Assembly (NCBI RefSeq): GCF_010119195.1 | Contig: NZ_WRXL01000001.1 | Location: forward strand, 682,001 to 746,000 | DNA length: 64,000 nt | Direction of reading: 5' to 3' | Source: Haloarcula salina | GTDB lineage: Archaea > Halobacteriota > Halobacteria > Halobacteriales > Haloarculaceae | Shown here: positions 10 through 34,705 of the stretch, one piece after another | How positions within the stretch are numbered: the first letter of the stretch is position 1 | Layout of the letters: every line of letters begins with the position of its first letter | The notes under the pieces: model-generated | Database searches by the model: none | The model's input: the letters and a program-made list of their open reading frames with translations, nothing else | Told to the model about the DNA's origin: nothing | Program-made: the position numbers and the translations under genes

Positions 10-1182
10 ATGACCATCCTCATCACAGGCGGCGACGGCTACGTCGGGTGGCCGGCCGCCCTGCGCATCGCTGACCGAACGGACGACCGCGTGCTGCTCG
101 TCGACAACTTCGCGCGACGGGAGTGGGTCGAGGAGGTCGGCGCGACGAGCGCGACGCCGGTCGCGAGCATCGACGCGCGGCTGGAGGCGGCCCGCGAGGT
201 CCACGGCCTGACGAACCTCTCGTTCGTCGAGGGCGACCTGGTCGAGAAGTCCTTCGTCGACGAACTGCTGTCGGTCCACGAGCCCGACGTGGTCGTCCAC
301 ACCGCCGCCCAGCCCTCTGCGCCGTACTCCCAGATCAACGGCGAGCGGGCCAACTACACCCAGCACAACAACCTCCAGGCGACGCGGAACCTCCTGTGGG
401 GCCTCGAAGAGCACGACCTCACGGACACCCACTTCGTCGAGACGACGACGACGGGCGTCTACGGCGCACCGGAGTTCCCCATCCCCGAGGGCGGCGCGAC
501 GATGGAGAACCAGGGCGAGCGCGACGACGTGCCGTTCCCGGCGATGGCCGGCAGCTGGTACCACCTCACGAAGTCTCACGACGCGGCCAACATGCGACTG
601 GCCCACAAGCAGTTCGACATCCCGGTCTCGGACGTGCGCACGGCCATCGTCTACGGGACGGAGACCGAGGAGACCCGCGCCGACGACCGCCTCAAGACCC
701 GCTTCGACTTCGACTACTACTTCGGGACCGTCACGCACCGGTTCTGCGCGCAGGCCGTCGCGGGCTACCCCGTCACCGTCTACGGCAAGGGCGAACAGCG
801 CAAGCCGTTCATCTCCCTGGAAGACACCGTCGAGGGGCTAGCCGAGGTCGCGCTGGCCGACCCCGACGACCGACCGGACGGGCTGACGGTCTACAACCAG
901 GTCACGCGGGCCATCAGCATCGTCGAGATCGCGGAGACCATCGCCGACGTGGGGAGCGAGTTCGACCTCGACGTCGCCGTCGAGCACTTCGAGAACCCCC
1001 GCGACGAAGACGAGACCCACAAGATGGAGATCGAGAACGACCGCTACGCGGACCTCATCGGAGAGCAGTCCCAGTCCTTCGAGGACGGCGTCCACGACAT
1101 CTTCGAGACGCTGACGCGCTACGGCGACACCATCGAGGCCCACGAGGACCGCTTCCTGCCGGGCGTTCTCAGCGAGGACTGA
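10..1182 (+). CDS. UDP-sulfoquinovose synthase-like SDR epimerase
   Basis: Extended short-chain dehydrogenase of 390 aa. The N-terminal Rossmann motif GGDGYVGW, the following DNFARR and TPVASI stretches, AAQPSAPYSQI, TTGVYGAPEFPIPEG and SWYHLTKSHDAANM line up with the diagnostic segments of the SQD1 / Agl3 family, which makes UDP-sulfoquinovose from UDP-glucose and sulfite. The YHLTK segment supplies the SDR YxxxK pair. A nucleotide-sugar role in the cytoplasm is firm; that the product is a sulfosugar is inferred from family resemblance. The stop is followed after 3 bases by the next epimerase gene, so these are co-transcribed. Other members of this branch could act on a different UDP-sugar. 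Confidence 0.85.
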   Translation: MTILITGGDGYVGWPAALRIADRTDDRVLLVDNFARREWVEEVGATSATPVASIDARLEAAREVHGLTNLSFVEGDLVEKSFVDELLSVHEPDVVVHTAAQPSAPYSQINGERANYTQHNNLQATRNLLWGLEEHDLTDTHFVETTTTGVYGAPEFPIPEGGATMENQGERDDVPFPAMAGSWYHLTKSHDAANMRLAHKQFDIPVSDVRTAIVYGTETEETRADDRLKTRFDFDYYFGTVTHRFCAQAVAGYPVTVYGKGEQRKPFISLEDTVEGLAEVALADPDDRPDGLTVYNQVTRAISIVEIAETIADVGSEFDLDVAVEHFENPRDEDETHKMEIENDRYADLIGEQSQSFEDGVHDIFETLTRYGDTIEAHEDRFLPGVLSED

Positions 1183-1185
1183 GCC

Positions 1186-2121
1186 GTGGACGTTCTGGTC
1201 ACCGGTGCCTGTGGCTACATCGGCAGCGCGCTGGTCCCGCTGCTGCGCGCGGACGACCGCGTCGACAGCGTCGTCGTCTTCGACGACCTCTCGACCGGGT
1301 CGCCGCGCGCGCTGCTCGGAACCCTCGGCGACGGCCTCGAATTCCGCCGTGGCGACGTGCGCGAGTACGGCGACGTGGAGAGCGCCATGCGCGGCGTCGA
1401 CCGCGTCATTCACCTCGCCGCCATCACGGGCGCGTCGAGCACCCACGACCGCCGCGAGGAGACGTTCGCCATCAACTACGACGGGACGGAGAACGTCCTG
1501 ACGGCGGCGGGCAAGCTCGGCGTCGACCACGTCGTCTTCGCCTCGTCGTGTAACGTCTACGGCCGCGCGACCAGCACCGACATCGACGAGACGGTCGACC
1601 CGGATCCGATCAACCCCTACGCGGAGACGAAACTGGAGTCAGAGACGCTGCTGTCCGAGTACTGCGACGAGTTCGACATGACCGGGACGGCGCTCCGGAT
1701 GGCCACGAACTTCGGCCACTCGCCGGGCATCCGCTTCAATCTCGTCGTGAACTACTTCGTCTTCCGCGCGCTGACAGGTCGGCCGCTGACGGTGTACGGC
1801 GACGGATCGAACTGGCGACCGTTCGTCCACGTCCGCGACGCCGCCCGCGCCTACGCCGAGGCGATTTGTGATCCCGCGGCGTGGGACGAGCCCGTCTACA
1901 ACGTCGGCTCGGCGGCCGGGAACTACCAGATCGCAGATATCGCCGAGGTCGTCGCCGAGGAGGTCGCGCCGGTCGACGTGACCTACCTCGAAGACGAGCA
2001 CCCCGGCCCGTCCTACCACGTCAGCTTCGACCGCCTCGGCGACACCGGATTCGAGACCGAGTGGACGCTCCGCGAGGGCATCCGCGACCTCGCAGACAGA
2101 TTCACCGCAACCAATGACTGA
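1186..2121 (+). CDS. NAD-dependent sugar-nucleotide epimerase/dehydratase
   Basis: A 311-aa extended SDR starting at GTG (three bases after the upstream stop). It has the GACGYIGS dinucleotide-binding loop, the SSCNVYG strand with the catalytic serine region, and YAETK as the YxxxK catalytic pair, so fold and chemistry class are clear. The end overlaps the start of the next SDR by 8 bases, indicating translational coupling. It is GalE/RfbB-like, but the substrate cannot be read from sequence. Its place between a sulfoquinovose-synthase-like gene and another epimerase, upstream of an oligosaccharyltransferase, suggests a nucleotide sugar for protein glycosylation. Confidence 0.85.
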   Translation: MDVLVTGACGYIGSALVPLLRADDRVDSVVVFDDLSTGSPRALLGTLGDGLEFRRGDVREYGDVESAMRGVDRVIHLAAITGASSTHDRREETFAINYDGTENVLTAAGKLGVDHVVFASSCNVYGRATSTDIDETVDPDPINPYAETKLESETLLSEYCDEFDMTGTALRMATNFGHSPGIRFNLVVNYFVFRALTGRPLTVYGDGSNWRPFVHVRDAARAYAEAICDPAAWDEPVYNVGSAAGNYQIADIAEVVAEEVAPVDVTYLEDEHPGPSYHVSFDRLGDTGFETEWTLREGIRDLADRFTATND

Positions 2122-3100
2122 GACTCACGACTCTCCGCACGTCGCCGTCACCGGCGCAGCGGGCTACATCGGCAGCCGCGTCGTCTCCGAGCTACAGCAG
2201 GCCCACCCCGACTGGGAGATCACCGCCTTCGACAACTTCTACCGCGGAACGGTCCAGTCCATCGGCGACGTGGACGTCGACCACGTCGACCTCCGGAACC
2301 GCGACCGCCTCGAAGCGACCCTGTCGGGCGCGGACGTGGTGATGCACCTCGCCGCCATCTCCGGCGTCGACGACTGCGAGGAGAAGCAGGACCTGGCCTA
2401 CGAGGTGAACGTCCAGGGCACGGAGCACGTCGCCTGGTTCTGTCGCAAGACCGGCGCGGCGATGATCTTCCCGTTCTCGATGGCCGTCATCGGCGACCCG
2501 CGGGAGTTCCCCATCACGGTCGATCACCCGCGCGACCCGCTGAACTGGTACGGGCGGACGAAGCTGCTCAACGAGCGAGCCATCGAAACGTACGCCGACG
2601 GCGCGTTCCCGGCCCACCAGTTCATGATCTCGAACCTCTACGGCGGCCACGAGGTCGGCGGCCAGTCGGTCTCGAAGGGGACCGTCATCAACTTCTTCGT
2701 TCGCCGCGCGCTCGCCGGCGAGACGCTGACCGTCTACGAGCCCGGCACGCAGTCGCGGAACTTCATCCACGTCAAGGACGTTGCCCGCGCCTACGTCGAC
2801 AGCTGCGAGCGCCTGCTGGAGCAACTCGACGCGGGCGAGACCGGCGTCGAGAAGTACGAGATCGCGAGCGACGAGGACCCGAGCGTCCACACCGTGGCCG
2901 AGCTGGTCAGGGACGTCGCCGCCGAGGTCGCCGACATCGACGCCGACGTCGAACTCGTGGAGAACCCCCGGGGCGACGACGAGACGCTCGTCGACTCCTT
3001 CCCCGTCGACACCAGTCGCGCGGCGGACGTGCTCGGCTGGGAGGCGGTCCACGACGTTGAGTCGGCCGTGCGGGACGCGTTCGCCGAGGAAGCGGAGTAG
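2114..3100 (+). CDS. NAD-dependent sugar-nucleotide epimerase/dehydratase
   Basis: A 328-aa extended SDR with the nucleotide-binding loop GAAGYIGS, FPFSMAVIGDP in the active-site strand position and YGRTK as the YxxxK pair. The ATG lies inside the end of the preceding gene, in an 8-base overlap. With the two genes before it, this forms a three-SDR operon feeding the glycosylation locus. Substrate unknown; a 4-epimerase or a dehydratase is equally possible. The gene ends 77 bases before the AglB-like gene, which has its own promoter-like TTTATT. Confidence 0.83.
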   Translation: MTETHDSPHVAVTGAAGYIGSRVVSELQQAHPDWEITAFDNFYRGTVQSIGDVDVDHVDLRNRDRLEATLSGADVVMHLAAISGVDDCEEKQDLAYEVNVQGTEHVAWFCRKTGAAMIFPFSMAVIGDPREFPITVDHPRDPLNWYGRTKLLNERAIETYADGAFPAHQFMISNLYGGHEVGGQSVSKGTVINFFVRRALAGETLTVYEPGTQSRNFIHVKDVARAYVDSCERLLEQLDAGETGVEKYEIASDEDPSVHTVAELVRDVAAEVADIDADVELVENPRGDDETLVDSFPVDTSRAADVLGWEAVHDVESAVRDAFAEEAE

Positions 3101-3177: not shown

Positions 3178-5580
3178 ATGAGCGACAAGCCCGGGGCGCT
3201 GGAAACGCTCGAAGACCGCCCCGAGCTCGAATCCGCCGTGCGGGAGATTCTCCCTGTCGACGACGAACAGGACGGCTGGACGTTCGACGACGTGCCGGTC
3301 GACTCCGGGCGGTTCGGGGAACTCGTCTCGGCGGGCATCGTCGAGAAAGACGACGACCGGTACCGACTCGCCGACCCCGAAGCCGTTCGGGCAGTCCTGG
3401 ACGGCGACGCGTCGGCCGAAACCGTCGGGAGAGACCGCGACGGCGAATCGATCCTCAACGGGGTCAGTCTCGATATCGACACGCGCACCGCGGCCCTGGT
3501 CGCGGGCGTTCTCGCTGTCGTCGTCCTCGCTCGCACGTACGTGATCGGGTCGATCTACCGCGGCGGCGACATCGTGCTGTCGGGGAACGACCCGTACTAC
3601 TACCGATACCACGTCGAGCAAGTCGCGGCGGAGGCGAGCCACGCCGCCGACGTGGGCGCGCTGTCGGTCCTGCCGGAAGGGCTGACGAAAGGCGAGCCCC
3701 TCATGGTCGCGACGCTCTGGTGGGTCGCCAGCCTGTTCGGCGGCAGCGAGGTCGCGATCGGCCACGTCCTCGCGTGGTACCCCGTCGTCTCCGCGCTCGT
3801 CTCCGCAGTACTCCTCTACCTGCTCGCGCTCCGGGTGACGAACGACCGCCGGGTCGGGCTCGCGTCCGTCCTCTTTCTGGCGATCATCCCCGGCCACGCG
3901 TTCCGGACGAGCCTCGGCTTCGCGGACCACCACGCCTTCGACTACCCGTGGCTGGGCCTCACCGCGCTCTCGCTCGCAGTGATACTCACTGCGGCCGTAG
4001 ATCGGGACGCGCTCCGCGAACCACTGCCGTGGCTCGGCGCGGGCGCGCTCGGTGTGGGCGTCGCCGGGCAGGTCCTCGCCTGGGAGGCCGGCCCTCTCTT
4101 GCTGCTCCCCATCGGACTCGCCGTGCTGGGACAGACGCTGCTCGACATCGACGCGAGGCGGTCGTCGATGCGCACGACCGGGCCGGTGCTCGCGGGCGTC
4201 GGCCTCGGTGCGGCGGTGATTGGACTCGTCCACCTCGCCGCCGGCTGGCAGGCGACCCCCGTCGTCGTCGCACCAGCACTGCTCGCGGGTGGAATCGTCG
4301 CCGCGATCGCGGCCGAAGAAGTCCTGCGGCGGGCGGGCGGAACCGCCAGACAGTTGGCGGCGGTCGACGTCGTCGCCGGCGTTCTCGCGGTCGCGGCTTT
4401 CCGGTTCGGGCTCCCTCAGCAGTGGGCGGCGTTCAGCGGCCGGTTCGGGACGCTGCTTCGCTCCGGCGGCGTGGCGGAGACCTACGGGCTGTTCAGTTCC
4501 GACGCGTTCGGTTTCCTGTTCCTGCTCGGGCTAACGCTCCCGCTGGCGCTCCCCGCGATGGCCTGGAGCCTCAAGCTGGCGCGGGACGGACACCGGGGCT
4601 GGCTCGTCGTCGGCAGCTACGGCTGGCTCCTGTTCGGGCTGGCCGTACTGCAGGTCCGCTTCGTCGGCGAACTGGCGGTGTTCCTCGCGCTGTTCGCCGG
4701 CTACACGTTCGTCTGGGTCGCAGCGTGGGTCGACATCGCACGCCCCGTGACAGACGGGGCCACAGAGCGACTGGCCGTGCGCGCCCCGGACGCCAGGACC
4801 GTCGCCTCGCTCGTCGTGTTGTTCCTGCTGTTCGGGTCGCTAGGAATCGTTCAGGTCCCGATCAAGACGAGTCAGGTGACCATCAGCGACGGCGCGTACG
4901 GGGCGGCGAGTACGATCGCGGACGACGCCACGGAACGCCAGCTCGACTATCCGGAGGACTACGTCCTCAGTCGGTGGGGGCGCAACCGCATGTACAACTA
5001 CTTCGTCAACGGAGAGTCGGAGAGCTACGGGTACGCCGAGGTGAACTACGGCGAGTTCCTCTCCTCGCGGTCGCCGAGAGACGCCTACAACGGCGTAATT
5101 GACGGCGACGTGGGCTACGTCGTTCTGGGGGACCTCGACGTCGGCGATCGGACCACGATGTACAGCCGGCTCTACGAATCGTACGGAAGCCGGCGCGGAA
5201 ACGTCTCTGGGCTGGAACACTATCAAGCCCTCTACGTCAGCGATTCGGGGCGGCACAAGGCCTTCACAGTCGTCCCCGGGGCGACGATACGGGGAACGGC
5301 CGCGCCGAATACGACTGTCACGGTGGCGACGAACCGGACTGTCTCGGGAACGTCCTTCGAGTACGTTCGGCAGACTGAGGCCAACGCCACCGGAACGTTC
5401 GCCGTGACCGTCGCCAACCCCGGCACGTACACGATCACCACGGCGGGCCAGGGTGAACGAAGGAGCGTCGACGTGTCGCAGGCGGCCGTCTACGAGGGGG
5501 GCACTGTCGGGATTGGCGAGAGCGCACAGCGGCGGGACGCGGAGCAGCCAGCGAGGACGACGGCGGGGGCGAACCCGTGA
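3178..5580 (+). CDS. AglB/STT3-family oligosaccharyltransferase, divergent
   Basis: An 800-aa protein transferring lipid-linked glycan to asparagine on exported proteins. Residues 1-95 are soluble and resemble a winged helix (GRFGELVSAGIVEKDDDRYRL). About a dozen membrane helices follow from near residue 103. STT3 hallmarks are present: GNDPYYYRYH (acidic D138) in the first external loop, GFADHHAFDY (D250, D255) in the second, and YGLFSSDAFGF in the SVSE/TIXE loop position. In the C-terminal domain the expected WWDYG acceptor-binding motif is replaced by SRWGRNRMYNY (about 598-608). A beta-sandwich-like tail ends the protein. The stop overlaps the next gene. Family membership is solid; the altered motif may mean a different acceptor or a specialised paralogue. 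Confidence 0.85.
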   Translation: MSDKPGALETLEDRPELESAVREILPVDDEQDGWTFDDVPVDSGRFGELVSAGIVEKDDDRYRLADPEAVRAVLDGDASAETVGRDRDGESILNGVSLDIDTRTAALVAGVLAVVVLARTYVIGSIYRGGDIVLSGNDPYYYRYHVEQVAAEASHAADVGALSVLPEGLTKGEPLMVATLWWVASLFGGSEVAIGHVLAWYPVVSALVSAVLLYLLALRVTNDRRVGLASVLFLAIIPGHAFRTSLGFADHHAFDYPWLGLTALSLAVILTAAVDRDALREPLPWLGAGALGVGVAGQVLAWEAGPLLLLPIGLAVLGQTLLDIDARRSSMRTTGPVLAGVGLGAAVIGLVHLAAGWQATPVVVAPALLAGGIVAAIAAEEVLRRAGGTARQLAAVDVVAGVLAVAAFRFGLPQQWAAFSGRFGTLLRSGGVAETYGLFSSDAFGFLFLLGLTLPLALPAMAWSLKLARDGHRGWLVVGSYGWLLFGLAVLQVRFVGELAVFLALFAGYTFVWVAAWVDIARPVTDGATERLAVRAPDARTVASLVVLFLLFGSLGIVQVPIKTSQVTISDGAYGAASTIADDATERQLDYPEDYVLSRWGRNRMYNYFVNGESESYGYAEVNYGEFLSSRSPRDAYNGVIDGDVGYVVLGDLDVGDRTTMYSRLYESYGSRRGNVSGLEHYQALYVSDSGRHKAFTVVPGATIRGTAAPNTTVTVATNRTVSGTSFEYVRQTEANATGTFAVTVANPGTYTITTAGQGERRSVDVSQAAVYEGGTVGIGESAQRRDAEQPARTTAGANP

Positions 5581-6050
5581 GGGCGCGGTATCGCGCGCTC
5601 GTCGCTCTCGTCTTGCTCGCCGGACTCGGTGGGCTCGCGGTCCACGCGGACGTGACCGGAGACGACCGCTGGCCGTACCCGGGCCCCGAAGCTCTGGAGT
5701 CGGACTACGACCGATACGTCGACCAGCGGACGTTCGTCACCGGATCCGTCGCCGCCGTCGACGGGACGGAGATGACGGTCGAAGCCGACACCCCCAATTC
5801 CGTGCTCCGCCTCCGCGTCACCGGAGTGGCCGCCCCGGTCGAACCGGGCGGGGTCGTCCAGGTGTACGGAACGATCAGGCCCGATCGAACGATCGCCGCC
5901 GAACGCGTGGAAGTCGTGAACAGCAGTTTCGGGGCCGAGCTGTACAAGTACGGCGCGTCGGCCGTCGGCGCGCTCGGATTCCTGATGCTATTCTTCCGGT
6001 ATTGGCGTCCCGATACCGATACCTGGACCCTGGAGGCGAGAGATGGCTGA
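5577..6050 (+). CDS. Small membrane-anchored OB-fold-like protein
   Basis: A 157-aa protein whose GTG start overlaps the stop of the AglB-like gene by 4 bases, so it is translationally coupled. It has an N-terminal hydrophobic segment (about 7-24), an extracytoplasmic beta-rich part (about 45-110) with alternating TGSVAAVDGTEMTVEA and VQVYGTIRPDRTIAAERV strands reminiscent of an OB fold, and a second helix near 125-140. Not a recognised named family. The tight coupling suggests it assists the oligosaccharyltransferase at the membrane, but that is inference from position only. Confidence 0.65.
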   Translation: MRARYRALVALVLLAGLGGLAVHADVTGDDRWPYPGPEALESDYDRYVDQRTFVTGSVAAVDGTEMTVEADTPNSVLRLRVTGVAAPVEPGGVVQVYGTIRPDRTIAAERVEVVNSSFGAELYKYGASAVGALGFLMLFFRYWRPDTDTWTLEARDG

Positions 6051-6537
6051 TCTGCTCACCCATCTCCTTGTCCCGTACGTGCTCCTCACGATCGCGAGCT
6101 GGCGAGTCGACTGGCTCGACCGGACGTGGGTCGTCGTCGGGATGGGCGGGGCCGCCATCCCCGACATGGTCAAGCTGAACATCGTCCTCGACTCGAACGC
6201 CGTCGAAGCCGCGCTCGGCATCCCGTTCACGTACGCGCCGCTGTCGTCGCTCGGCGGCGTCCTGCTGATCGGCGGCGTCATTACGATGGCGTTCGACCGA
6301 CGACACTGGTCGCGCGTGTTCGGCCTCGTGACGTTCGGGGGGCTGACCTCGCTCGTCCTCGACGGGATGCGGGTGTACGCCGACGGACGGGCGAGCGCGT
6401 ACCTCTACCCGTTCACGAACTGGCGGCCACCGACGCCGAGCCTCTACGTCTCCTCGGACCCGCGAGTGCTCGTCGTGGCGCTCCTGATTGCCGGAGCGGT
6501 GGCGCTCCTCGACCGGCGACAACGAAGTGCCGTCTGA
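6043..6537 (+). CDS. YdjM/DUF457-like membrane-bound hydrolase family protein
   Basis: A 164-aa protein with four or five hydrophobic segments. The N-terminal DLLTHLLVPY and the following IPDMVKLN resemble the H...PD metal-binding signature of YdjM/DUF457 membrane-bound metal-dependent hydrolases. A second conserved patch, LDGMRVYADGR, resembles the LLD region of that family. It overlaps the preceding gene by 8 bases and completes a three-gene AglB-coupled unit. Activity on lipid or glycan is not demonstrated for most members. Family assignment is moderate. Confidence 0.6.
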   Translation: MADLLTHLLVPYVLLTIASWRVDWLDRTWVVVGMGGAAIPDMVKLNIVLDSNAVEAALGIPFTYAPLSSLGGVLLIGGVITMAFDRRHWSRVFGLVTFGGLTSLVLDGMRVYADGRASAYLYPFTNWRPPTPSLYVSSDPRVLVVALLIAGAVALLDRRQRSAV

Positions 6538-6789: not shown

Positions 6790-8103
6790 ATGTCCACCGT
6801 CGTGAGGCGAACCAACACCTTCGTGGTACGTCCGCTATCCGACGCCGACGAGCGGCTACTGCTGAACCTGTTGGACGCCTCTGCCAGCCTGTGGAACGAG
6901 TTAAACTACGAGCGTCGCCAGCAATTCTTCGACGGTGAGAGCGTGTGGGACACTGCTGACTACCGCAAACAGTACGTCGGCGTTCTCGGCTCCGCCACCG
7001 CACAGCAAGTCATACGGAAGAACAAATCGGCGTGGCGGTCGTTTTTCGCCGCCCGCGAGAACGGCGATGACACCGCCCCACCCGGCTACTGGGGCAACGA
7101 GGAGGATGGTCGCGAGCTACGCACGTTCATCCGAAACGACCTGTACACGCTGGAAACTGGTGAGCGGTCACGAATCGAGATACCAGTCGGCCAAACCCTG
7201 AAAGACGAGTACGGGCTGGGCTATCACGACCGCTTGCGGCTGGAAGTCTGCGGCGCTCCGAAATGGGGGGGCGAACAGGGCCGCTTGGAGATACAGTACG
7301 ACGAGATGGACGACACGTTCAGAGCCTTTCAGCCTGTCACCGTACCCGATTCTCGGCAGGATTCACCACTGGCCTCTGAAGAGGCCGCGCTGGACGTGGG
7401 CGCAAACAATCTTGTCGCCTGTACCACCACGACCGGCCAGCAGTACCTCTACGAAGGCCGGGACCTGTTCACCCGCTTCCGCGAGACGACCGAGGAAATC
7501 GCCCGCTTGCAGTCAAAACTCCGAGAGGGTCGATACAGCAGTCAGCGGATACGGCGGCTGTATCGCAAACGGACGCGACGGCGCGACCACGCACAGGACG
7601 CGCTGGTTCGGAACCTGACCGAACGACTGTACGCCGAGGGTGTCGCTACGGTGTTTGTGGGCAACCTCACGGATGTTCTCTCAGCCCATTGGTGCGCCGA
7701 GGTGAACGAGAAAACGCACCATTTCTGGGCGTTCCGGGCGTTCATCGACCGATTGGCGTGTACTGCTGAGGAGTATGGAATCTCTGTCGAAGTTCGGTCG
7801 GAGGCCGACACAACCCGGACGTGCCCGGAGTGCGGTGAACAGGACAACACCGACCGGGACGGCGACGTGTTCCGGTGTCCATGCGGTCACGAAGCCCATG
7901 CCGACCTCTGTGCGTCTCGCACGTTCCTCGAACAGCAGGCTGGCGAACTCGAAGTCGGGTCGATGGCTCGGCCCGTGCGTCTCAAGTGGGACGGCCACTG
8001 TTGGTCGGAGCTATCAGGCTCTCCCGAGAGGGAAAGTCCCAACGAGGAGCGCACAAACCGGAGTACCGGCGACGGGAAATTTGCCTCCGTGGGTACGGCA
8101 TAG
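6790..8103 (+). CDS. tnpB: TnpB RNA-guided endonuclease homologue
   Basis: A 437-aa IS1341-type TnpB. The RuvC-I aspartate is D202 in ALDVGANNL. The zinc ribbon is CPEC (345-348) and CPC (363-365), and the RuvC-III aspartate is D372 in [11 protein letters not shown]. At the RuvC-II strand, where the family usually has Glu in an IxxEdL context, this protein reads VFVGNLTDV (G291). E304 or E307 in [12 protein letters not shown] could substitute as in rearranged TnpBs. The last 30 residues overlap the presumed guide-RNA region. TnpB proteins normally cleave DNA matched by an RNA from the element's right end. Activity here is uncertain. Confidence 0.88.
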
Positions 8104-8157: not shown

Positions 8158-9459
8158 TTACCAGGTCAGCCCCTCGTAGGTGATCCCGTCGCGAGGCTCG
8201 ACGACGCGACGGCCGTCGACGACCACCGGCTCGGTCATCGCGTCGAACTCGGCGTCGAGCGCCGCGAACTCGTCCCAGTCTGTGACGACGACAGCTCCGG
8301 ACGCGCCGTCTAGCGCCGTCGCGGCGGAGTCCGCGTACTCGATGTCGGGGTAGCGCTCGCGCATGTTCTCGGTCGCGACGGGATCGTACGCGACGATTTC
8401 GGCCCCCCGCTCGCGGAGGCCCTCGATGACCGGGACGGCCCGCGTGTTCCGGATGTCGTCCGTCCCGGGCTTGAACGCGAGGCCGAGGACGGCGACGCGC
8501 TTCCCGGTCACGTCGACGTGGTCGTCGAGCAGCGAGAGCAGGCGTTCGGGCTGGGCGTCGTTCAGTTCGACGGCCGCCGAGAGGACCGCGGGGTCGTACC
8601 CCAGGTCGCGCGCCGCGGCGATGATGGCGTCGGTATCCTTCGGGAAGCAGCTGCCGCCCCAGCCGACGCCGCTGCGGAGGAACCGCTCGCCGATGCGGTC
8701 GTCGAGACCGATGGCGTCGGCCACTTCGTAAGCGTCGACGCAGAGTTCCTTGCAGATGTTCCCGATGTCGTTGATGAGGCTGACCTTGGCCGCGAGGAAC
8801 GTGTTGTTCGCGTACTTGATCATCTCCGCCTCCGGGATGCCGGTTTCGACGACCGGCACGTCGCCGGCGGCGGCTTCACGGAGCGGCTCGTAGAGTTCGT
8901 GTAAGAGCGCCGTCGCGCGCTCGTCGTCCGTCCCGAAGACGAGCTTGTCGGGGTTCAGGAAGTCCTCGACGGCGGTCCCCTCGCGCTGGAACTCTGGGTT
9001 CGAGGCGACGAGGAAGTCCTCGCCGCGCTCCAGTCCGGCCTCCGCGATTCGGGCGGCCAGTCGGTCCTCTGTCGTGTTCGGGACGACCGTCGACTTGGTG
9101 ACGACGAGGTGCGGGCCGTCGTCGTCACCGCCGGCCAGCGCCTCGCCGACCGACGACGCCCCGGCCTCCATGAACTGCAGGTCGATGCTGCCGTCGTCGT
9201 TCGACGGCGTCGGGAGCGCGAGCATCGTCAGGTCCGTCTCCCGAATCACGTCGTAGTCCGTCGTCGCCCGCAGGCGCTCGCCGCCGTGCTCGGCGACCAG
9301 TTCGTCAAGTCCCGGTTCGTGGATCGGCGCGTCGCCGTCGTTGATCGCGTCGACGATGTCCTCGTCGATGTCTACCGTCGTCACCTCGTGTCCGAGGTCG
9401 GCGAGACAGGCCGCGACAGTCGTGCCGACATATCCGCTGCCGACGATGCTGACGTTCAT
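8158..9459 (-). CDS. aglM: UDP-glucose 6-dehydrogenase (AglM-like)
   Basis: A 433-aa member of the UDP-glucose/GDP-mannose dehydrogenase family, oxidising UDP-glucose to UDP-glucuronate with NAD. It has the N-terminal [20 protein letters not shown] Rossmann motif, a KSTVVP segment, the helical middle [16 protein letters not shown], and the catalytic cysteine in [12 protein letters not shown]. The C-terminal domain ([14 protein letters not shown]) is complete. Divergent from the nucleotidyltransferase at 9547, it matches the AglF/AglM pair known from Haloferax N-glycosylation. UDP-glucuronate could feed glycan assembly directly or the UDP-xylose-synthase-like enzyme at 18228. Confidence 0.93.
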
Positions 9460-9546: not shown

Positions 9547-10308
9547 ATGAAAGCTGTCGTGCTCGCGGCCGGCGAGGGGACGCGTCTCCGCCCCCTGACC
9601 GAGGACAAGCCCAAAGGGATGGTAGAGGTCGCAGGCAAGCCGATCTTGACCCACTGTTTCGAACAGTTGATCGAGCTAGGCGCCGACGAACTCCTGGTAG
9701 TCGTCGGCTACAAGAAGCAAGTCATCATCAACCACTACGAAGACGAGTTCGAGGGCGTCCCGATCACCTACACGCACCAGCGCGAACAGAACGGACTGGC
9801 CCACGCGCTGTTGACCGTGGAGGAGCACGTCGACGACGACTTCATGCTGATGCTCGGCGACAACATCTTCGAGGCGAACCTCCAGGACGTGGTCAACCGC
9901 CAGCAGGAGGACCGCGCCGACGCCGCCTTCCTCGTCGAGGAAGTCCCGTGGGACGAGGCGAGCCGCTACGGCGTCTGTGACACCAACAAGTACGGCGAGA
10001 TCACCGAAGTGGTCGAGAAGCCCGACGACCCGCCGTCGAACCTCGTGATGACCGGCTTCTACACGTTCACGCCGGCCATCTTCCACGCCTGCCACCTCGT
10101 CCAGCCGTCGAACCGCGGCGAGTACGAGATCAGCGACGCCATCGACCTCCTCTTGCAGTCGGGCCGGACTATCGATGCCATCCGGATGGACGGCTGGCGA
10201 AACGATATTGGCTATCCCGAGGACCGCGACGAAGCCGAACGGCGGTTGCAGGGCGAAGTCGACCCCGAGATGGCCGCCGACGCCATCGAAGCGACCGACG
10301 GCGAGTGA
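9547..10308 (+). CDS. aglF: Sugar-1-phosphate nucleotidyltransferase (AglF-like)
   Basis: A 253-aa single-domain nucleotidyltransferase, probably glucose-1-phosphate uridylyltransferase. It shows GEGTRLRPLTEDKPKGMVEVAGKP (nucleotide-binding loop plus catalytic lysine), LMLGDNIF metal-site aspartate, EVVEKPDDPPS and GYPEDRDEAE. There is no left-handed beta-helix domain, unlike the GlmU-like gene at 36963. The divergent position next to aglM implies that the pair supplies UDP-glucose and then UDP-glucuronate. A dTDP-glucose pyrophosphorylase role cannot be excluded from sequence. Confidence 0.87.
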   Translation: MKAVVLAAGEGTRLRPLTEDKPKGMVEVAGKPILTHCFEQLIELGADELLVVVGYKKQVIINHYEDEFEGVPITYTHQREQNGLAHALLTVEEHVDDDFMLMLGDNIFEANLQDVVNRQQEDRADAAFLVEEVPWDEASRYGVCDTNKYGEITEVVEKPDDPPSNLVMTGFYTFTPAIFHACHLVQPSNRGEYEISDAIDLLLQSGRTIDAIRMDGWRNDIGYPEDRDEAERRLQGEVDPEMAADAIEATDGE

Positions 10309-10474: not shown

Positions 10475-11896
10475 ATGCAGTCTGGGTGGCGATACCGGCT
10501 AGCTGCAATCTTCGGAGCGGCAGTCTTCGTCACGTCCGCGGTGGCCGTCGCCAACATGCCGCCGATCCAAGCGCTCGTGACGACCGTTCCGCCGCTGCAG
10601 AACCTTCGACCGGAGACGCTGTCACATCGTGACCTCGTCGACCAGACGGCGGTCACCGTCCTCGTCACGCTCGGCGTACTGTGGCCGCTGTTTAAACCTC
10701 GTCCGCGCCGGATTCTCGATACGATATCGCTCACCCACAAGCGGGTGTTCCTCACGGCGGCCGTCCTCGCGACCATCGGCTATTTCGACTGGTCGTCGCG
10801 GCTCCCGCGGCCGACTCTCATCGCGACGATCGCCCTGCTCGCGGTCGTCCTTCCCGTGTGGTTCGTCAGCATTCGTCAGCGTCCGCGGTCCTCTACCCGA
10901 GCGATAATCGTCGGTGACGACACCGAGATCATGCGGACACTCTACGAGAGCGCCGATCTCCCCATCCTGGGTATCGTCTCGCCGCCGGGCGCGTACCCCG
11001 GCCGACCCCGGCAGCGACTCACCGACGGGGGGATGACCATCGAGCGACCGGAGGACCTGCCGCGGCTCGGCGGGCTCTCCCGACTCGACGAGGTGCTCGT
11101 CGAACACGACGTCGACACCGTGTTGCTCGCGTTCGAACACCCCGATCGAGAGGAGTTCTTCGGGACGCTCTCGGCCTGTTTCGAACACGGCGTCGCGGCG
11201 AAGGTCCATCGCGAACACGCGGATAGCGTGCTCGTGACGGACGCAGCCGGCGGCGATCTGGTCGACACGCACCTCGAACCGTGGGACTGGCAGGACTACG
11301 TCGTCAAGCGACTGTTCGACATCTCGTTTGCAGGTCTGGCACTGCTGTGTCTGCTCCCGATCATCGTCGGAATCGCGGCGGGCATCAAGCTCGACTCGTC
11401 CGGGCCGATCCTGTACAGCCAGACCCGGACGGCCGCCTTCGGGGAGACGTTCACCATCTACAAGTTCAGGAGCATGGTGACGGACGCCGAAGCCCGAACC
11501 GGGGCGAAACTGAGCGAGGAGGACGCGGGCAAGACGGACCCGCGGGTGACCCGCATCGGCCGAGTGCTCCGACGGACGCACCTCGACGAGATCCCGCAGT
11601 TGTGGTCGATCCTCGTCGGCGACATGAGCGTCGTCGGGCCACGGCCTGAACGCCCCGAACTCGACGCCGACATCGAAACAGACGTCGACGAGTGGCGGAG
11701 CCGGTGGTTCGTGAAACCTGGGTTGACCGGACTCGCACAGATCAACGGCGTGACCGGCCACCAGCCGGAGCAGAAGATCCGGTACGACATCGAGTACATC
11801 CGTGAGCAATCGTTCTGGTTCGACATGAAAATCGTCGTGCGCCAGATCTACGGCGTCGGCCTGGACGTCGTCGTGTTGCTCGACCCCCGGGAGTGA
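10475..11896 (+). CDS. Polyprenyl glycosylphosphotransferase (WcaJ/WbaP-type)
   Basis: A 473-aa initiating enzyme that moves a sugar-1-phosphate from a nucleotide sugar to a polyprenyl phosphate at the membrane. Four N-terminal helices (about 10-135) precede a nucleotide-binding-like middle domain (RAIIVGDDTEIMRTLYESADLP). The C-terminal monotopic domain begins with a re-entrant hydrophobic helix (LFDISFAGLALLCLLPIIVGI), then IYKFRSM, the catalytic Asp-Glu in THLDEIPQLW, GDMSVVGPRPE and KPGLTGLAQING. This is the bacterial exopolysaccharide/O-antigen type of initiator, different from the AglJ dolichol-phosphate route of Haloferax. Assignment is strong; the sugar is unknown. Confidence 0.92.
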   Translation: MQSGWRYRLAAIFGAAVFVTSAVAVANMPPIQALVTTVPPLQNLRPETLSHRDLVDQTAVTVLVTLGVLWPLFKPRPRRILDTISLTHKRVFLTAAVLATIGYFDWSSRLPRPTLIATIALLAVVLPVWFVSIRQRPRSSTRAIIVGDDTEIMRTLYESADLPILGIVSPPGAYPGRPRQRLTDGGMTIERPEDLPRLGGLSRLDEVLVEHDVDTVLLAFEHPDREEFFGTLSACFEHGVAAKVHREHADSVLVTDAAGGDLVDTHLEPWDWQDYVVKRLFDISFAGLALLCLLPIIVGIAAGIKLDSSGPILYSQTRTAAFGETFTIYKFRSMVTDAEARTGAKLSEEDAGKTDPRVTRIGRVLRRTHLDEIPQLWSILVGDMSVVGPRPERPELDADIETDVDEWRSRWFVKPGLTGLAQINGVTGHQPEQKIRYDIEYIREQSFWFDMKIVVRQIYGVGLDVVVLLDPRE

Positions 11897-11915: not shown

Positions 11916-13175
11916 TCACTGCGCCTCTCGGACCGGAATCCAGTCGGAGTGCGCCGACGCCACGAGCAGGAGGACGAGCAGGAACATGATCCGCGGCACC
12001 CGCGCGTAGGCCCCGCCGATGCCGGCACAGAGGAGGCCGACGAGCCAGCCCGCACCCGCTGCGCCCAGTACGTACGACCCGCGATAGCGGTTCCGGACGA
12101 ACGTGCGAACGAGCGCGAGATAGAAGCCGGCGAGGATTACCACGCCGACGATACCAACGTCCACCAGTATCTGGGAGTAGAACACGTCGAGGTAGCCGAC
12201 CGTTTCCGGGGACGCGAACCAGCCGTACCCGAAGATGGGCTGGTCCTTCCACAGGTCAATCGCCCGTAGCGCCAGGTCGTATCTGGAGTAGATCGCTCCG
12301 GTCCCTTTCCCCGTGAGAACGATCGTCCCGCCTTCGAACGTCACGGTCGGGAGGAACCGCTGGAATATCGTCGCGTTGAGGACCGACGCGAGACCGAGTC
12401 CCGCGAGCAAGCCGCACCCGGCGACGCCCGCGACGAGCGGCTTCGAGAGATGTCGATAGGAGAGCGCCGAACCGACGACGATACCCGAAAGAAGCGTTAT
12501 CAGACCGGATCGGGACCCGCTCATGACGACGCCCACGGCGACCAAGAGGCCGCCTGCGAGGAGCCAAACGGCCCGCCGCCGCTGAAACGAGAACGAACAG
12601 GCACCGGCGAGGACGCTCATGATCGCGACGAGTGCGAGAAACACGGCGAGGCCGTTCGGGTTCTGCCAGAACACGGTCGGTTGCCCGTACGTGGACAGGA
12701 ATGGCAGAACGGTGATACGGTCGTATCCGGTCAAAAGCGGCGTGATACTGATCGCGACGACCGCCTGAAGCGTCCCCCCCACGAGTACCGTCCAGACGAC
12801 GGGGTTCCAGTCCACCCGCTCCGCGTACTGCTGAGCGAGCAGGAAGAACACGGCGATTTCGAACCACTTGAGCGTCCAGAGCGTGTTCGGAAGCATCGAG
12901 ACTTCGGAGCGGATCGTGGCCACGACGACGGTGACGACGATCCAGGCCCCGGCGACGAGGAACCAGGCCATCGGCCGGGGCAACGAAAGGTCGATTTCCC
13001 AGTCGTCTCGCCGCTGGCGCTCCTCGACGAACAGCACGAAGATCAAAAGCAGTGCGAAGTCCGAGCTGTTGATCGAGGCGAATTTCGAACCGACTCCGGG
13101 GAGCGGTATCTGGATCGAGAAGAGGATAGCCAGCGCGAAGAGGACGAACAGCCACGTATCACGGTTCAACGACAT
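11916..13175 (-). CDS. O-antigen ligase/polymerase-like (Wzy/WaaL) membrane protein
   Basis: A 419-aa protein with about ten to twelve predicted helices. A GSRSG segment lies after the central helices, and a long extracytoplasmic loop near residues 280-345 contains YSRYDLALRAIDLWKDQPIFGYGW, the pattern of the Wzy_C/O-antigen ligase family (helix before a conserved arginine/histidine-rich loop). It would polymerise or transfer lipid-linked oligosaccharide outside the membrane. Only 4 bases separate it from the upstream GT2 gene on the same strand. Both face the phosphoglycosyl transferase, with a convergent 19-base gap. Confidence 0.82.
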   Translation of the reverse strand: MSLNRDTWLFVLFALAILFSIQIPLPGVGSKFASINSSDFALLLIFVLFVEERQRRDDWEIDLSLPRPMAWFLVAGAWIVVTVVVATIRSEVSMLPNTLWTLKWFEIAVFFLLAQQYAERVDWNPVVWTVLVGGTLQAVVAISITPLLTGYDRITVLPFLSTYGQPTVFWQNPNGLAVFLALVAIMSVLAGACSFSFQRRRAVWLLAGGLLVAVGVVMSGSRSGLITLLSGIVVGSALSYRHLSKPLVAGVAGCGLLAGLGLASVLNATIFQRFLPTVTFEGGTIVLTGKGTGAIYSRYDLALRAIDLWKDQPIFGYGWFASPETVGYLDVFYSQILVDVGIVGVVILAGFYLALVRTFVRNRYRGSYVLGAAGAGWLVGLLCAGIGGAYARVPRIMFLLVLLLVASAHSDWIPVREAQ

Positions 13176-33880: not shown

Positions 33881-34705
33881 ATGAACGTTATCGACGAAAA
33901 CGGAAATCTGTTTGGCGTCGTCAACGCGATAGACGCATTGGCTATATTGGTAGTACTCACGGTTCTCACTGCGGGTGCCACGCTCGTCTTGAGTGGCTCA
34001 AACGACAGGACACAGACGTCCGAGCCAGAACCGATCAGGTACGCGACGGTTTCGTATACCGTCCCCCTCACCAGTGATGCAGCGGCGATCGACACCGGAA
34101 CTATGATCTCCCCCTCGGGAAGCGACGAAACGTTTCAGGTTGAGGACGTCCACCGGAGCTTCTCGAACTCGTCGGCTCACATCGTCGCACGCGTCTCGTA
34201 TCGGGGGACGCCGAGAGCGAACGGAGGGAGAATATACGGTGGAGACACGATAGCGATGGTCACGAACTCGTATCGGTTCCGTACGACCGTTCTCTCCGTC
34301 AACGATACCGCGAAAGAGATTCGGCGGACGACGGTTCCGGTTGTCGTTCGCGCCAGTGTCGACGAAGCCGTCGCACGGGCGATCAGGTCCGGCCAGCAGG
34401 TCGAAATACAGAATCAAACAGTAGCCAGCATACAGTCGGTGTCGAGACGCTCGGGAACCGGGAATGAGCAGGTCGTTCGTGTCGAGATCGAACTCGCCGC
34501 ACGGACTCAGAAACAGGTACCAATGTTCGGAGGCAACCAGATCCGCCTCGGAAGCCGAATCTCGATTGTCACCGACAATTTCATGATGCGAGGAAGTGTC
34601 ATCTCGGTTGAATCACGCGCGTCCGAAGAACTGTCAGATCGGCACACGGCTGGAAACGAAGAACGATCGTCAGACAACCCACCAGACACGATAGAACAGC
34701 AATAA
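33881..34705 (+). CDS. DUF4330 family membrane-anchored protein
   Basis: A 274-aa protein with N-terminal ENGNLFGVVNAIDALAILVV, the DUF4330 signature followed by a single membrane helix (about 18-40). The remainder is soluble and beta-rich: repeated VVVRASVDEAVARAIRSGQQVE-type and RISIVTDNFMMRGSVISVE elements. Function of the family is unknown. Here, as in cyanobacteria, it follows glycan genes, so a role in envelope polysaccharide assembly or export is inferred. Gap to the next gene is 10 bases. Confidence 0.75.
   Translation: MNVIDENGNLFGVVNAIDALAILVVLTVLTAGATLVLSGSNDRTQTSEPEPIRYATVSYTVPLTSDAAAIDTGTMISPSGSDETFQVEDVHRSFSNSSAHIVARVSYRGTPRANGGRIYGGDTIAMVTNSYRFRTTVLSVNDTAKEIRRTTVPVVVRASVDEAVARAIRSGQQVEIQNQTVASIQSVSRRSGTGNEQVVRVEIELAARTQKQVPMFGGNQIRLGSRISIVTDNFMMRGSVISVESRASEELSDRHTAGNEERSSDNPPDTIEQQ

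Follow-up and report, generated by a model that had tools for sequence, protein, structure and literature searches.

A gene of Haloarcula salina probably encodes a second haloarchaeal oligosaccharyltransferase, which would transfer a Dol-PP glycan onto the N-terminal asparagine of surface glycoproteins with no need for an NxS/T sequon; its catalysis, donor and acceptor, and the role of an altered motif, are what we infer in this reading. The sequon is treated as a near-universal rule of N-glycosylation, to which Asn-2 of the Halobacterium S-layer is one exception. The gene lies in a stretch of 64,000 nucleotides (contig NZ_WRXL01000001.1), the whole of which was analysed and is referred to below as the window. 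The chances are about even that its entire clade, found in about half of the Halobacteriales genomes sampled, gave up NxS/T and N-glycosylates surface proteins on an asparagine selected by position, at the mature N terminus, with Dol-PP donors and a rebuilt W-R-Y-N pocket.

The reading frame begins with ATG, encodes 800 amino acids and is uninterrupted (Table 1). The product belongs to the STT3 superfamily (Pfam PF02516, 39.3 bits, cut-off 24.5) and matches AglB_L1 (27.5 bits, cut-off 23.6); with TIGR04154, the model of canonical AglB, it scores 139.7 bits, below the cut-off of 450. A preliminary description of this DNA had noted an intact frame, the stretches GNDPYYYRYH and GFADHHAFDY, and the absence of WWDYG, with SRWGRNRMYNY at residues 598-608, and all of this was borne out. 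Residues 1-75 form an N-terminal extension that is predicted, by DSSP of the model, to fold as helix-helix-helix-strand-strand, a winged-helix-like arrangement; no Pfam match to these residues was found. No counterpart of this strongly conserved DSGxFGELV domain was found in the genome's canonical AglB.

Table 1. Features of the paralogue gene and its surroundings (positions in the window)
Feature	Position	Strand	Basis
Three NAD-dependent epimerase/dehydratase genes, directly upstream	10-1182, 1186-2121, 2114-3100 (10..3100)	+	
WWDYG-less STT3/AglB-fold paralogue, 800 aa	3178..5580	+	ORF, Pfam, fold model
Conserved N-terminal extension, residues 1-75, DSGxFGELV	3178..3402	+	DSSP of model, conservation
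First DXD motif GND, residues 136-138	3583..3591	+	Equivalent of A. fulgidus Asp47 metal ligand
Second DXD motif DHH, residues 250-252	3925..3933	+	Equivalents of A. fulgidus Asp161/His163
TIXE-equivalent GVAE, residues 431-434, Glu434	4468..4479	+	Conservation, hhalign
Arg494, aligned with QRRF arginine region of canonical AglB	4657..4659	+	75/75, hhalign
Family signature VLSRWGRNRMYNYFVNGES, residues 596-614, replacing WWDYG	4963..5019	+	Homologue conservation
Strand YVVLG and variable loop 647-664, where canonical AglB has the DK-motif helix	5116..5169	+	Alignment, model secondary structure
UDP-sugar dehydrogenase	8158..9459	-	
NTP_transferase (sugar nucleotidyltransferase)	9547..10308	+	
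Bac_transf polyprenyl-phosphate glycosylphosphotransferase	10475..11896	+	PF02397 206 bits; linkage, co-occurrence
Wzy_C-type O-antigen ligase/polymerase-like membrane protein	11916..13175	-	PF04932 40 bits

Two DXD-type motifs, on EL1 and EL2, and the TIXE/SVSE glutamate on EL5 are all present, the former within GNDPYYYRYH (136-145) and GFADHHAFDY (247-256), and the latter as E434, which hhalign pairs with TVGE of canonical AglB. Over 75 sequences (alignment A2), N137, D138, Y140, G247, H251, E434, R494 and F495 are invariant; D250 is found in 67, with Glu in the other eight, and H252 in 59. The metal ligands of Archaeoglobus fulgidus AglB are Asp47, in Gly-Asn-Asp, and Asp161 and His163, in Asp-His-His, and Glu360 of its TIXE motif acts via waters (PMC8342417). 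Five members (L095, L097, L099, L100 and L101) have GF[LVI][ED]H[RQ]xHQY as their second DXD motif instead of GFADHHAFDY; given this change, metal binding may differ in that group.

Structure prediction, called for in the preliminary description, gave an AlphaFold model (pLDDT 91.2, pTM 0.84) whose top match in the PDB is 3waj, a structure of A. fulgidus AglB (Z 40.3 over 600 residues, rmsd 4.4). Further matches were to 5gmy and 7e9s, which like 3waj are AglB-L structures, the three giving Z 36-40 over 600-646 residues, and to 3wai (Z 14.1 over 153 residues), AglB-L being the closest structural match overall. As modelled, the protein has the overall AglB fold with its C-terminal globular domain. 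DPY19 C-mannosyltransferase and other GT-C enzymes have a related fold and match at Z about 24, lower than AglB. The donor of DPY19 is Dol-P-Man, and its target residue is Trp.

At the WWDYG position, residues 598-608 are encoded by nucleotides 4969-5001, and a scan for WWD.G found no such pattern anywhere in the 800-residue protein, so that a WWDYG located elsewhere is ruled out by sequence. The replacement is itself a family-wide signature, [VF][LF]SxWGxNRxYNYFVNGES. V596, R604 and N607 were found in all 75 rows of alignment A2, Y617 in 74, W600 in 73, G612 in 71, and S598 and Y606 in 68 each. WWD was found in none of 47 diverse homologues, 79 intact named homologues and the 75 aligned sequences, three sets that overlap. 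That such a variant might be common in ordinary haloarchaeal AglB, which the preliminary description had named as fatal to its proposal, was rejected, since canonical copies retain WWDYG at 30 of the 30 loci from which an ORF was extracted.

Where canonical AglB has its DK motif, region 645-671 is variable and its loop has no conserved Lys, the DK position being assigned by alignment rather than by residue-level superposition. The DK/MI motif is hard to place without the latter, and all three A. fulgidus paralogues (AglB-L, AglB-S1 and AglB-S2) keep both WWDYG and the DK motif (PMC3703281), WWDYG setting all three apart from the window protein. With GND, DHH and VAE at matching places and a new conserved motif beside them, the catalytic half of the enzyme appears to have been kept and the half that reads a +2 Ser/Thr to have been replaced. 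Judged from conservation, a new pocket made of W600, R604, Y606 and N607 may have taken over from the Ser/Thr pocket of WWDYG and DK.

Compared with haloarchaeal AglB (TIGR04154; VNG1068G of H. salinarum, AglB of Haloferax volcanii), to which hhalign aligns it at 100% over 423 columns, the paralogue shares the STT3 N-terminal domain, GND and DHx, a TIXE-type Glu, the QxRF arginine and AglB_L1. Unlike haloarchaeal AglB, it carries SxWGxNRxYNYFVNGES and no WWDYG, has the conserved 75-residue N-terminal domain, is linked to Bac_transf and, as far as alignment without residue-level superposition can place it, has no conserved DK lysine.

Relatives at E <= 1e-15 were found in 208 of 392 Halobacteriales genomes, about half of the sample. 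The canonical enzyme, which the preliminary description had proposed to seek in the rest of the genome, was found there (939 aa, SWWDYGHWI, adjoining a GT2-like gene; C1:16416-17741) and is the only other STT3 protein of the window genome; a canonical WWDYG AglB is likewise retained in the same genomes as the paralogue. Paralogues and canonical proteins separate with support 1.0 (FastTree, 47 paralogues and 18 canonical proteins), and this split, together with the kept active-site residues, upholds the earlier suggestion of a specialised paralogue, whose acceptor use would be altered. A phylum sample outside Halobacteriales gave weak matches alone (under 65 bits, 24-32% identity), which are presumed to be AglB, and no Haloferax was seen among the best 80 of 131 named loci. 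A viral origin was rejected, with no relative among IMG/VR viral contigs. The paralogue was found on six plasmids and is annotated as STT3 domain-containing, LamG-like or hypothetical. Two copies occur in Halorientalis regularis (L149/L152), in Salinibaculum sp. KK48 (L151/L159), where one of the two is plasmid-borne, and in genomes G296, G212 and G304.

The proposed acceptor site was read from surface glycoproteins found by the TIGR04207 signal-peptide model, which was chosen because TIGR04216 on its own does not single out S-layer proteins in most families or in the genus of the window. The first polar residue (one of DENQKRHY) after the hydrophobic core was recorded, with signal cleavage sites deduced from sequence. 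In the discovery set this residue was Asn in 17 of 22 genomes with the paralogue and in 4 of 24 without. With the rule fixed beforehand and one top protein taken per genome, fresh genomes gave 24/30 versus 4/24 (p = 6e-6). All genomes together gave 46/59 versus 8/48 (p = 1.5e-10), and the association holds when stratified by family (p = 6e-8), which controls in part for relatedness; it is weakest in the window's own family (8/15 versus 2/8). Examples of such mature starts are ANAD, ANAS, ANEV, VNER, VNAD, NHAD and NQDD, and the +1 residue was never Pro among the 52 N-terminal asparagines of paralogue genomes. Thirteen genomes with the paralogue lack an N-terminal Asn and eight show the reverse; incomplete genomes, other substrates or a match that is not the main S-layer protein may account for these. 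In 21 of 61 genomes, with about 3 expected, no more than 60 kb separates the paralogue from a surface glycoprotein gene, and among 37 genomes where both positions are known such proximity was seen for the paralogue in 11 and for canonical AglB in 3. Some lineages show this linkage strongly, and many lack it.

To our knowledge, Asn-2 of the Halobacterium S-layer has lacked an assigned enzyme since 1998. H. salinarum DSM 3754 carries both canonical AglB and a paralogue (L111; G064:C1:932302-934623), the latter scoring 141.1 bits with TIGR04154 (cut-off 450). The genome also encodes a bacteriorhodopsin identical to that of H. salinarum. Its S-layer gene (TIGR04216, 1181 bits) is followed at 3.3 kb by the start of the paralogue, and a Bac_transf gene lies 4.3 kb from the latter. 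The predicted mature start of the S-layer protein (L104:13446-15986) is Ala-Asn-Ala-Asp, so that, with cleavage as predicted, Asn-2 is kept and the sequon is not. An Asn-Ala-Ser sequon has been described for the H. halobium S-layer, relative to which Ala-Asn-Ala-Asp is a natural exchange of Ser-4. Asn-2 of the H. salinarum S-layer bears a repeating-unit glycan built on Dol-PP in a bacitracin-sensitive manner, and is still glycosylated after Ser-4 is changed to Val, Leu or Asn (PMC2952790). Genome sequencing was taken to give a single oligosaccharyltransferase gene, which left the Asn-2 case without a suitable explanation (PMC2952790), and whether AglB handles the repeating-unit glycan at all was still described as unclear later (PMC6591318). 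Dol-PP donor, N-terminal Asn and a dispensable +2 Ser are established for this site by biochemistry (PMC2952790); the paralogue beside the S-layer gene would tie them to an enzyme, and is the best candidate yet for the missing one.

It is unlikely, in our estimate, that the paralogue still acts on NxS/T, with other residues reading the +2 position, as a back-up AglB or one specialised for Dol-PP glycans. Donor-specialised oligosaccharyltransferase paralogues do exist in other organisms, the AglB fold and active site are kept here, and in 10 of 52 surface proteins the N-terminal Asn does lie within NxS/T. Those 10 of 52, on the other hand, equal the background rate of Ser/Thr at +2 (0.20), and the motif of the Ser/Thr pocket has been swapped in every member of the family. 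The dispensability of Ser-4 in H. salinarum (PMC2952790) argues against a sequon enzyme as well.

Bac_transf enzymes make polyprenyl-PP-sugars, and the donor of haloarchaeal AglB is Dol-P. A Bac_transf gene occurs in 198 of the 208 genomes with the paralogue and in 51 of the 184 without (odds ratio 52, uncorrected for relatedness); across the 392 genomes, 198 have both, 10 the paralogue alone, 51 Bac_transf alone and 133 neither. The two genes lie within about 5 kb of each other at 22 of 42 loci. This co-occurrence, given the product of Bac_transf, points to a Dol-PP donor for the paralogue, unlike the Dol-P of haloarchaeal AglB. Besides the genes in Table 1, the window cluster holds several glycosyltransferases, an ABC transporter and an FkbM methyltransferase. 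Other genes recur near the paralogue. Two small genes directly after it (5577-6537), one with weak DUF5666 similarity and one encoding a YdjM-like membrane protein, recur at 7 of 42 loci. An OrfB_IS605/TnpB-like protein with a Cas12f1-like TNB domain is encoded within the sugar cluster at 6790-8103, 1.2 kb after the paralogue, and such genes lie near the paralogue at 6 of 42 loci. A DUF4330 protein (33881-34705, not adjacent in the window), whose N-terminal pattern was found near the paralogue at 11 of 42 loci, is possibly an accessory of the pathway.

A cluster with a polymerase-like protein and many sugar genes also fits exopolysaccharide, and the paralogue might instead serve exopolysaccharide or a lipid as glycan ligase or polymerase and not modify protein, with a sugar or lipid as acceptor and no call for a peptide pocket. 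Bac_transf, the Wzy_C-like protein and the glycosyltransferases all suit such a role, for which Haloarcula hispanica offers a precedent: there, a glycosyltransferase of the oligosaccharyltransferase gene cluster served exopolysaccharide and not S-layer glycans (PMC9943897). We nevertheless regard this explanation as improbable, for the TIXE glutamate and the AglB C-terminal domain are retained, and S-layer genes lie near the paralogue. The N-terminal Asn, moreover, tracks the paralogue and not Bac_transf, being found in none of 10 genomes with Bac_transf but without the paralogue, a pattern that a ligase does not predict.

Less probable still is that another residue or type of site is used, such as Thr or an internal non-sequon Asn, with the association of N-terminal Asn being indirect. 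Haloarchaeal S-layers do carry O-glycans of unexplained origin. Non-sequon N-glycosites have been reported in Haloferax volcanii (PMC8241124); against such a reading stand the strength of the N-terminal Asn association, its replication on fresh genomes and within families, and Asn-2 of H. salinarum, a case settled by biochemistry (PMC2952790). That the gene is a decayed AglB copy without catalytic activity, as the lost sequon-binding WWDYG and the DK lysine that was not found might suggest, is hardly credible, since the family spans hundreds of genomes with frames intact in nearly all inspected, and DXD, the TIXE Glu and the replacement motif have been conserved across 75 diverse sequences; the preliminary description, which had argued from the uninterrupted frame against decay, thus finds further backing in a family of 208/392 genomes with its own conserved signature.

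None of these alternatives predicts the N-terminal Asn pattern as directly as does a second oligosaccharyltransferase. As in AglB, the active site, made of DXD and TIXE with bound metal and placed outside the membrane, would move the lipid-linked glycan onto the asparagine amide. With the Ser/Thr pocket of WWDYG and DK rebuilt around W600, R604, Y606 and N607, a +2 hydroxy amino acid would not be read. Once the signal peptide is removed, S-layer proteins and related surface glycoproteins would present the main substrate, an Asn at around position 1-3 of the mature chain, and the donor would be a Dol-PP glycan whose synthesis the Bac_transf phosphoglycosyltransferase initiates. In H. salinarum, the paralogue would be the missing enzyme that places the repeating-unit glycan on Asn-2.

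The superfamily has been described before; neither the variant, nor its link to Dol-PP, nor its association with N-terminal Asn was found in the open-access literature searched, and to that extent the variant and the role proposed for it are new. Compared with the preliminary description, the altered acceptor use proposed here is tied to a Dol-PP route, to Halobacterium Asn-2 and to the sequon-less N-terminal Asn of S-layer proteins. A specific H. salinarum gene can thereby be named, together with a family that about half of the Halobacteriales genomes sampled possess, and the predicted acceptor site can be read from S-layer sequences. If true, nature would offer an oligosaccharyltransferase that follows another acceptor code, of use both to studies of how sequons are recognised and to the engineering of glycoproteins.
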